Of a DNA stretch of 64,000 nt, positions 53,081 through 55,084 are shown one piece after another. The notes below the pieces were generated by a model that was given only the letters and a program-made list of their open reading frames with translations, was not told where the DNA came from and did not search any database. Both the position numbers and the translations under genes were made by a program. Within the stretch, counting starts at the first letter, position 1; every line of letters starts with the position of its first letter. Source of the DNA: Verrucomicrobiaceae bacterium (GTDB taxonomy: Bacteria; Verrucomicrobiota; Verrucomicrobiia; Verrucomicrobiales; Verrucomicrobiaceae); assembly GCA_016795485.1 (NCBI GenBank), contig JAEUHM010000019.1:62001-126000 (forward strand), in the 5' to 3' direction.

Positions 53081-53518
53081 TCACGGGTGAAGCAAGATCG
53101 CTCGAAGCTTTGTTTTCGCCGTTCCAGAGGTGAGGTCTGCCAATGTGTATTGATCAAGACGGGCGTAGAAGGCATTCAATGCCTCCGAAAGCGCTCCTTT
53201 CATCCGACAGGCACCATTTAGGATGCAAGTGTTGGTTCCTGGGTCAAAACATTCGACAATAGCAGGATCGTCTTCAGTCTGACGCACAAGTCTGCCGATT
53301 TGGATTTCAGATGCGGCCATGGCGAGGCTGATACCACCACCGCGACCCCGCTTCGTCTCCAAGTAGCCGAGGTGGGCGAGACGATTGACGACCTTGGCAA
53401 GGTGATGGCGCGAGATATCGAAGGCATCCGTTACTTCGTCCAATTGAAACGAGTCACCTTTTGCGGCCCCGAACATTAGAACGCGCAAGGAGTAGTCACT
53501 GAATAAGCTCAGATGCAT
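53081..53518 (-). CDS. nsrR: NsrR-like Rrf2 family regulator (nitric oxide sensor)
   Basis: Rrf2-type Fe-S regulator of 145 residues. The HTH region is LDEVTDAFDISRHHLAKVVNRLAHLGYLETKRGRGGG, closely following the NsrR pattern rather than IscR or CymR. Three Cys (C90, C98, C104) in ECFDPGTNTCILNGACRMK would bind a Fe-S cluster that NO destroys. LSEALNAFYARLDQYTLADL matches the C-terminal block of E. coli NsrR. The start at 53518 (MHLSLFSDYSLRVL) is the family start; an upstream in-frame start at 53575 would add 19 unrelated residues. It is divergent from the HPP gene, and the 11-1-11 palindrome at 53593-53615 lies between them, so autoregulation is likely. Cluster type is unknown. Confidence 0.88.
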   Translation of the reverse strand: MHLSLFSDYSLRVLMFGAAKGDSFQLDEVTDAFDISRHHLAKVVNRLAHLGYLETKRGRGGGISLAMAASEIQIGRLVRQTEDDPAIVECFDPGTNTCILNGACRMKGALSEALNAFYARLDQYTLADLTSGTAKTKLRAILLHP

Positions 53519-53592
53519 AGCAGGACGGGAAGAATCGCAAAAGTTTACGGTAAGCGAAGGATAGATGTCGTCCATCTCTGTTTAGCTGATTA

Positions 53593-53615
53593 AAAGCGTA
53601 TTTTCAGTGCGTCTT
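53593..53615. promoter_or_regulatory. NsrR-type operator between nsrR and the HPP gene
   Basis: An imperfect palindrome with 11-1-11 geometry, the geometry of the E. coli NsrR operator, matching its consensus at about 15 of 22 half-site positions by eye. The flanks extend the symmetry (TTAAA at 53590-53594 with TTTAA at 53614-53618). It lies 74 bp upstream of nsrR and 79 bp upstream of the HPP gene. A closely related site precedes the globin gene, aligned without gaps at 21 of 31 positions. Confidence 0.65.
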
Positions 53616-53694
53616 TAATGCTCCCCATGCCGTTGCATCGCATCCAGTCTCAATTTCAAGCTCTTGGCCCATCCCAAGTCGGAGGGTCTTGTCG

Positions 53695-54366
53695 ATGAGT
53701 TGGAATGCATTCGTGCGATGGTTGGGCATTGAGCCAGTGACGACAAGTGCCACTGAGCGCGTCATTGCTGCTCTGGCTGGTGGGATGGCTATTTGGGTGC
53801 TTGCTTGGATTTCGCTATCATGGCTTCCTGCCAATGCGTCTGCGGCTCTCGTTGCATCGATGGGCGCGAGCGCGGTCATCCTCTTCGTAACACCACACAG
53901 CCCACTCGCTCAGCCTTGGCCGATGATTGCGGGGCACTTGGTGGCGGCATTTGCGGGTGTTTTGTGTGCCAAGTATGTTCAAGATGACGCGGTGAGCTGT
54001 GCTTGTGCCGTTGGGTTGACGATTGCGCTGATGCATCTGCTCAGGTGCCTTCACCCACCTGGCGGAGGCACTGCGTTGGCCGTGATTCTGGGAAGTGACC
54101 AAGTCCATGAGATTGGTTTCCAGTTCCTGGTTACTCCCGTGGCGATGAATGCCGTCGTCCTTGTGTTGCTCGCGGTCGTCATCAACCTAGTGTTTCCTTG
54201 GAGACGTTATCCAACAGCCCTATTTGCACGTCGGGCCGTTCATAGCGAGGTTGCGCCAACGCATGATGAGATCCTCGCTGCACTGCGAAAGATGGACGCT
54301 TTTGTCGATATCGCGGAGGAAGAGTTGATTCAACTCATCGAGCTTTTGTCCAAAAAGAAGCGCTGA
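53695..54366 (+). CDS. HPP family integral membrane protein
   Basis: Protein of 223 residues with four hydrophobic segments within about 20-175 and the family signature CLHPPGGGTAL. HPP family proteins have been shown to act as nitrite transporters in cyanobacteria and plants; that activity here is inference. An acidic, helical C-terminal tail (about 185-223, EEELIQLIELL) follows the membrane part, unlike the minimal HPP proteins. The ATG at 53695 is preceded by a good ribosome-binding site (GGAGGG at 53681-53686), a better spacing than for the TTG at 53689. It is divergent from nsrR and co-directional with the globin gene 145 bp away. Confidence 0.85.
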   Translation: MSWNAFVRWLGIEPVTTSATERVIAALAGGMAIWVLAWISLSWLPANASAALVASMGASAVILFVTPHSPLAQPWPMIAGHLVAAFAGVLCAKYVQDDAVSCACAVGLTIALMHLLRCLHPPGGGTALAVILGSDQVHEIGFQFLVTPVAMNAVVLVLLAVVINLVFPWRRYPTALFARRAVHSEVAPTHDEILAALRKMDAFVDIAEEELIQLIELLSKKKR

Positions 54367-54416
54367 TAGCGGAGTGTGCTGATCTTGCTCAATGCGATGC
54401 GGATTCTGACGAATGA

Positions 54417-54439
54417 AAGACGTATTGAAAATGCATCTT
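54417..54439. promoter_or_regulatory. NsrR-type operator upstream of the globin gene
   Basis: An 11-1-11 palindrome: the right half AAATGCATCTT is identical to the E. coli NsrR half-site consensus, and the left half AAGACGTATTG matches it at 8 of 11 positions when read in its orientation. It begins 50 bp after the HPP stop and ends 72 bp before the globin start. Together with the site between nsrR and the HPP gene it suggests a local NsrR regulon. Confidence 0.75.
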
Positions 54440-54511
54440 TAAGTTTACTTTGCGTGCCCTCAGCGGTCTGAGGGCGGCATTTCTATTCCGATCAACAACC
54501 TCCAGTTATTC

Positions 54512-55084
54512 ATGAAAGTCATTCGCATCTCACTCGCCGTTCTTGGACTGCTTCTCAGCCTGTCCAACCCTATCAATGCTGCCGAAGAGCTAAACACGGT
54601 GTGCCCAATCAGTGGTAAACCTGTCGATCCAAAAATCACGACGGTTTATGAGGGCAAAACTTATGCGTTCGCGATGGAAGCGTGCAAAACAAAGTGGATT
54701 TCAGCCCGGGACGCTAGTCTTTATCACAAACTGGGTGGCAAAGCCGCCATTGATGCGGCAGTGGAGTCCTTCTACGTCAAAGTGCTGGCCGATGATCGCA
54801 TCAAGCACTTCTTTGATGACATCAATATGACGGCTCAGCGGCGGAAGCAGAAGGCCTTCCTGTCTGCCGCATTCGGTGGGCCACAGCCTTGGACGGGAAA
54901 AGACATGCGGAAAGCGCATGAGAATCTTCCCGGACTGAATGAGACACACTTCAATGCCGTGGCTGAGAATCTTCAGAAGACCTTAGAGGAACTGAAAGTG
55001 CCGAAAGACCTGATTGATCAGGTGATGGCCATCGCTGCGTCCACCAAGGACGATGTGCTCAATCGGAAGCCTGCTGGCAAGTAA
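54512..55084 (+). CDS. Exported YHS-domain truncated hemoglobin (group 1) fusion
   Basis: Protein of 190 residues: signal peptide at about 1-23 (ending INAA), a YHS-like metal-binding segment at about 29-67 (TVCPISGKPVDP... YAFAMEACKTKW, with Cys31 and Cys58), then a group 1 truncated globin at about 69-185. Globin hallmarks: LYHKLGGKAAIDAAVESFYVKVLADDRIKHFF at the start, a B10 Tyr88 that stabilises bound O2 or NO, and the proximal His136 in MRKAHENLPG. Truncated globins with B10 Tyr often dioxygenate NO to nitrate. Export would place this activity in the periplasm, unlike cytoplasmic Hmp. It is preceded by a strong NsrR-type operator and followed by a strong terminator, so it is probably a separate NO-induced transcript. 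Confidence 0.88.
   Translation: MKVIRISLAVLGLLLSLSNPINAAEELNTVCPISGKPVDPKITTVYEGKTYAFAMEACKTKWISARDASLYHKLGGKAAIDAAVESFYVKVLADDRIKHFFDDINMTAQRRKQKAFLSAAFGGPQPWTGKDMRKAHENLPGLNETHFNAVAENLQKTLEELKVPKDLIDQVMAIAASTKDDVLNRKPAGK

Follow-up and report, generated by a model that had tools for sequence, protein, structure and literature searches.

In the stretch of Verrucomicrobiaceae DNA analysed here (64,000 nucleotides, hereafter the window), three neighbouring genes very probably make up a genuine small unit that defends the cell from nitric oxide (NO): nsrR lies back to back with the gene of an HPP-family membrane protein, and next comes the gene of an exported group-I truncated globin, which also bears a degenerate YHS domain (Table 1). 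We read the locus as an autoregulated, NO-inducible unit for detoxification in the cell envelope, to which we give a probability of roughly 0.6, and the parts of this reading differ in strength. Regulation by NsrR is well supported and NO removal by the globin is probable, while the substrate of the HPP protein is only inferred. The genes, the operators, their uniqueness in the genome and their conservation come from the sequence; NO sensing, NO dioxygenation, anion transport and cellular location are taken from family membership.

Layout of the locus

The adjacency of the three genes, proposed in an earlier note on this DNA, is borne out by the Pfam matches of their products to Rrf2 (104 bits, E=8.5e-30), TM_HPP (PF04982; 154 bits, E=3.2e-45, over the cut-off) and Bac_globin (E=2.2e-18), and the two NsrR-type operators that it described are indeed present at 53593-53615 and 54417-54439. 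Its term "operon" fits in so far as the genes make a compact NsrR-linked unit, but not as a single operon, since nsrR is divergent, the globin gene has an operator of its own, and a hairpin at 54455-54476, downstream of operator 2, separates the HPP and globin genes. Two or three NsrR-controlled transcription units are therefore more likely than one operon. The hairpin was also considered as an RNA leader and set aside, as it has no counterpart in the aligned relatives. An Rfam search of the window found no RNA family, and a sigma-70 promoter scan gave nothing exceeding chance.

Table 1. Features of the nsrR-HPP-globin locus (positions in the window).
Feature	Position	Strand	Remarks
nsrR	53081..53518	-	Rrf2-family repressor; cluster cysteines C90, C98, C104 and Asp8
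operator 1, AAAGCGTATTTTCAGTGCGTCTT	53593..53615	.	in the spacer between divergent nsrR and HPP; distance to nsrR start 74 bp, to HPP ATG 79 bp
HPP-family membrane protein	53689..54366	+	start TTG 53689 or ATG 53695; without CBS domains
operator 2, AAGACGTATTGAAAATGCATCTT	54417..54439	.	72 bp upstream of globin start
hairpin, TGCCCTCAGCGGTCTGAGGGCG	54455..54476	+	between operator 2 and globin; may be an HPP terminator or a leader
exported YHS-like + group-I truncated globin	54512..55084	+	190 aa

Two NsrR-type operators

The published core of the NsrR motif reads gATGyAT-N5-ATrCATc (PMC1274295). Operator 2 agrees with the E. coli-type NsrR consensus AAGATGCATTTNAAATGCATCTT at 19/22 positions and is its best match in the genome; operator 1 agrees at 15/22 and is a weak site. 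In random Markov sequence of the length of the window (30 simulations), 0.03 matches were obtained at 17/22, 0 at higher scores and 1.6 at 15/22. Neither operator is a perfect palindrome (symmetry at 6/11 and 8/11 arm positions), and by arm symmetry alone they would not reach significance. Their close likeness over 31 bases had been reported with 21 identities, a figure that we correct to 22/31. When all 31-mers of the window were compared with operator 1 on both strands, at least 19 identities were reached only by operator 2 (22 or 23) and by the reverse complement of operator 1 itself (20); each operator is the closest counterpart of the other in the window.

Across the 6.5-Mb genome, the two operators are the only matches with at most three mismatches to the degenerate palindrome AARRYGYATTTNAAATRCRYYTT (a reversed control pattern gave 0), a pattern written with both sites in view, so that the independent tests are the score against the E. 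coli consensus and the recurrence of the sites elsewhere. As to recurrence, NsrR-type sites scoring at least 17/22 were found upstream of 27/79 globin homologues vs 6/2456 background stretches. Two further operator subtypes, AAGAAGYATA...ATACTTCTT and AATAGGTAT...ATACCTATT, lie beside NsrR proteins of loci in the same family, where the two other NsrR subtypes are each adjoined by palindromes of their own type. Judged on sequence, it is very likely that NsrR controls both the HPP and the globin gene. A regulon with two operators in 6.5 Mb would be small enough for complete dissection.

Conservation in the family and beyond

The YHS-globin is encoded in 36 of the 68 genomes of the same family, and 45 of its loci were inspected. 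An nsrR gene lies near 12 of these and an HPP gene near 10, leaving 35/45 with no HPP nearby. The conserved neighbourhood that the earlier note had suggested looking for in relatives does exist, in that 8 loci of the family hold all three genes, a count that takes in one interrupted HPP gene and one HPP fragment. Gene order varies between nsrR/HPP/globin (as in the window), nsrR/globin/HPP followed by a gene resembling trHbIII, and nsrR/trHbIII-like/globin with a convergent HPP gene. Damaged HPP genes occur in three family loci, being interrupted in L282, out of frame in L280 and reduced to a fragment in L300. The insert in the first of these (L282:1103-2930, genome G592) is about 1.3 kb long and by eye resembles a class A beta-lactamase gene; that genome is listed at 8% contamination and the insert is possibly a misassembly. 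Orthologous nsrR genes that are 60% identical (L079, L080) adjoin neither HPP nor globin genes, and the regulator alone thus does not predict the unit.

Outside the family, in another phylum, a gammaproteobacterial contig (L109) carries nsrR, HPP, globin and reductase genes, the first three in the order seen in the window, with a strong operator in each spacer; these operators were the only matches with at most two mismatches among 15 other genomes. We considered a recent transfer of the unit between this gammaproteobacterium and the lineage of the window, which is not favoured, since the window HPP protein groups with Verrucomicrobiota (89/96, not a starred branch). As the HPP protein of L109 groups with Gammaproteobacteria, independent assembly or a very old unit accounts better than recent transfer for the layout that the two have in common.

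Proposed mechanism

An Fe-S form of NsrR would, at operator 1, repress its own gene together with the HPP gene and, at operator 2, the globin gene. Attack of NO on the cluster would release NsrR from both operators, after which the HPP protein would enter the inner membrane and the YHS-globin would be exported to the periplasm. There the globin would bind O2 and convert incoming NO to nitrate before it enters the cytoplasm. The anion products, nitrite or nitrate, would most likely be moved across the membrane by the HPP protein, a transport that could feed the assimilatory nitrate/nitrite genes of the genome or relieve nitrite. Genes for NirA, a CysJ-like reductase, an ABC transporter for nitrate and a molybdopterin reductase similar to NasA and Fdh are present in the genome (G000:C32, L306); a search of it for copper nitrite reductase returned just sub-threshold matches.

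The exported YHS-like globin

The globin protein comprises a segment resembling a signal peptide (about aa 1-23), a YHS-like segment (about aa 31-61) and the globin domain (aa 69-184). Cyanoglobins in the PDB match it at E=2e-34, and its structure model shows the 2-on-2 fold and resembles trHbN structures (target TM 0.8-0.9). The heme-pocket residues Tyr88 (TyrB10), Gln109 and Gln113 (E7/E11) and the proximal His136 are present and conserved, and the hydrophobic N-terminus is common to 12 aligned homologues. The match to the YHS domain (PF04945) reaches 20.3 bits, under the Pfam cut-off of 30.3, and we therefore call the segment YHS-like only. Two of its cysteines are left in the window protein, some homologues lack them, and the YHS cysteines differ from one homologue to another, which makes a metal site in this segment doubtful. 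Group-I globins oxidise NO to nitrate (PMC3820574, PMC10866078), and on this family membership the window globin probably removes NO in the envelope.

Electron supply is the weakest step of the periplasmic reading: no donor is evident, and whereas cytoplasmic homologues adjoin a 2Fe-2S/FAD reductase gene, none lies beside the exported globin. That missing neighbour is a ground for seeing the protein instead as a periplasmic handler of O2, heme or peroxide, or as an NO sink without turnover, with NsrR control merely marking nitrosative conditions. In cable bacteria, truncated globins joined to multiheme cytochromes have been suggested to act as oxidases in the periplasm (PMC11976967), a possible peroxidase role of a class-1 globin has been investigated (PMC3820574), and the inconstant YHS cysteines point the same way. 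We nevertheless hold such a role to be unlikely, given that the heme pocket keeps the residues seen in NO-oxidising group-I globins and that the link to NsrR is conserved as well. If NO scavenging by an exported, heme-dependent protein is true, it raises the matter of heme loading and of iron re-reduction outside the cytoplasm.

One further Bac_globin gene is found in the genome, on another contig. In the family, a globin similar to those of group III (Bac_globin 23.6 bits) is often paired with the YHS-globin, frequently in divergent orientation (L034, L265-L302); it is missing from the window locus.

The HPP membrane protein

The HPP gene of the window is the only one in its genome, and its product contains the HPPGG motif. 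A fold search gave a low-confidence model and no structure match. Nitrite transport by an HPP protein has been shown for cyanobacteria and chloroplasts (Maeda 2014, as cited in PMC4137279), and from family membership we would give even odds that the window protein moves nitrite or nitrate, the link to nitrite being drawn at the level of the whole family.

Of 80 loci chosen for their globin similarity, 7 have an HPP gene no more than 6 kb from the group-I globin gene, vs 0.12 expected from HPP density, about 60 times more by this rough figure. Some of these HPP-globin runs also hold norC-norB or an iron-sulfur repair gene. When HPP loci of Gammaproteobacteria were sampled by family alone, NO genes were found within 1.5 kb in just 1/30; HPP is therefore not an NO gene in general, and only a subset is. 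The HPP-globin link is thus a repeated but minority association. The phylogeny favours repeated recruitment beside globins, the starred branches of the HPP tree forcing at least three changes. The recurrence of HPP beside globins, norCB and the iron-sulfur repair gene offers a testable role for a poorly known membrane family. A broader and distinctly tentative proposal would be that HPP proteins have been recruited repeatedly and independently as partners of truncated globins that oxidise NO, where they would probably transport the nitrate or nitrite so formed, and that Verrucomicrobiota shifted NO oxidation to the periplasm by means of a YHS-fused exported globin drawing electrons from some donor there.

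The same genes could serve nitrogen nutrition rather than defence, with NO derived from nitrite relieving NsrR repression, the HPP protein importing nitrite or nitrate to be assimilated and the globin holding down the NO that comes with it. The nitrite transport by HPP proteins reported via PMC4137279 would suit this, as would NirA, the nitrate ABC transporter and the molybdopterin reductase encoded in the genome, and M. smegmatis has GlnR sites at both an HPP gene and glbN (PMC3662644). However, the nas-type genes are on another contig and have no NsrR site there, the genome already possesses a nitrate ABC transporter, and HPP relatives beside norCB and the iron-sulfur repair gene point to NO stress, all of which makes a nutritional role improbable and leaves NO defence as the preferred reading.

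By eye, HPP genes of relatives were also seen near a gene resembling a ClC-family channel (L035, L038, L040) and near a MarR-like regulator (L034, L035, L037, L039).

The NsrR regulator

The start of nsrR is better placed at 53518 (MHLSLFSDYSLR) than at 53575, as judged from alignment with other NsrR proteins. The window protein shares Asp8 and the three cysteines with S. coelicolor NsrR, in which Asp8 is a ligand (PMC9338935) and from which NO causes loss of the Fe-S cluster (PMC9338935, PMC4861436). The best NCBIfam equivalog of the window protein is NsrR (113.6 bits), yet below the cut-off of 182, a threshold that may be geared to proteins closely related to that of E. coli, and we therefore named the gene from other features. 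These are the Rrf2 fold, the three cysteines (invariant among the 9 NsrR proteins compared) with Asp8, and an 11-1-11 site close to nsrR itself and to NO genes; in the PDB, only the S. coelicolor NsrR entries 5n07 (E=1.5e-25) and 5n08 match strongly. The cysteines are spaced by 7 and 5, which we take to be the spacing of RirA, and the NCBIfam RirA model scores 107 bits, nearly as high as NsrR. Even so, a different Rrf2 protein that senses iron or redox state like RirA or IscR, with sites that merely resemble NsrR boxes, is highly improbable, since the strong PDB matches are restricted to NsrR, Asp8 is present, and the sites fit the published motif (PMC1274295) and are seen again ahead of globin genes, in some cases together with further NO genes.

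Relation to known systems

The nearest precedent is glbN-lpg2536 of Legionella pneumophila, predicted to be the sole NsrR target of that genome (PMC1274295, PMC3820574), where an NsrR-type site likewise lies upstream of a group-I cyanoglobin gene. There, however, the globin is paired with a ferredoxin reductase and no HPP protein is described, whereas in the window the globin is exported, YHS-fused and without an adjacent reductase, and HPP is a second target. The earlier statement that the arrangement is not a standard one thus holds as regards the HPP partner and the exported YHS-fused globin without adjacent reductase, which are new, and fails as regards the control of a glbN-type globin by NsrR, since the Legionella prediction came before (PMC1274295). 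Our literature search, which covered subscription journals thinly, found no paper joining NsrR, HPP and an exported YHS-fused globin, nor is an HPP protein given as a target of NsrR in any paper that it turned up.

S. coelicolor NsrR (hmpA1, hmpA2, nsrR; PMC4432287, PMC4861436) resembles the window in its very small regulon, with its own gene and globin genes, and in its 23-bp operator, but its globin target is a two-domain flavohaemoglobin and not a single-domain truncated globin with a signal peptide, accompanied by HPP. The cyanobacterial and chloroplast nitrite transporters (Maeda 2014) (via PMC4137279) share the TM_HPP family with the window protein; for them no NO regulator or globin partner is described. 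In cable bacteria a truncated globin domain is again proposed to be periplasmic (PMC11976967), though it is fused to a multiheme cytochrome c and proposed as an oxidase, and the window globin is fused to a YHS-like domain and linked to NsrR. Among proteobacterial MAGs we also observed tandem fusions of two group-I globin domains in one reading frame (L127:778-1587, L117:5758-6738, L145:4135-4944), and the frame in L117 has a hydrophobic N-terminal stretch too.
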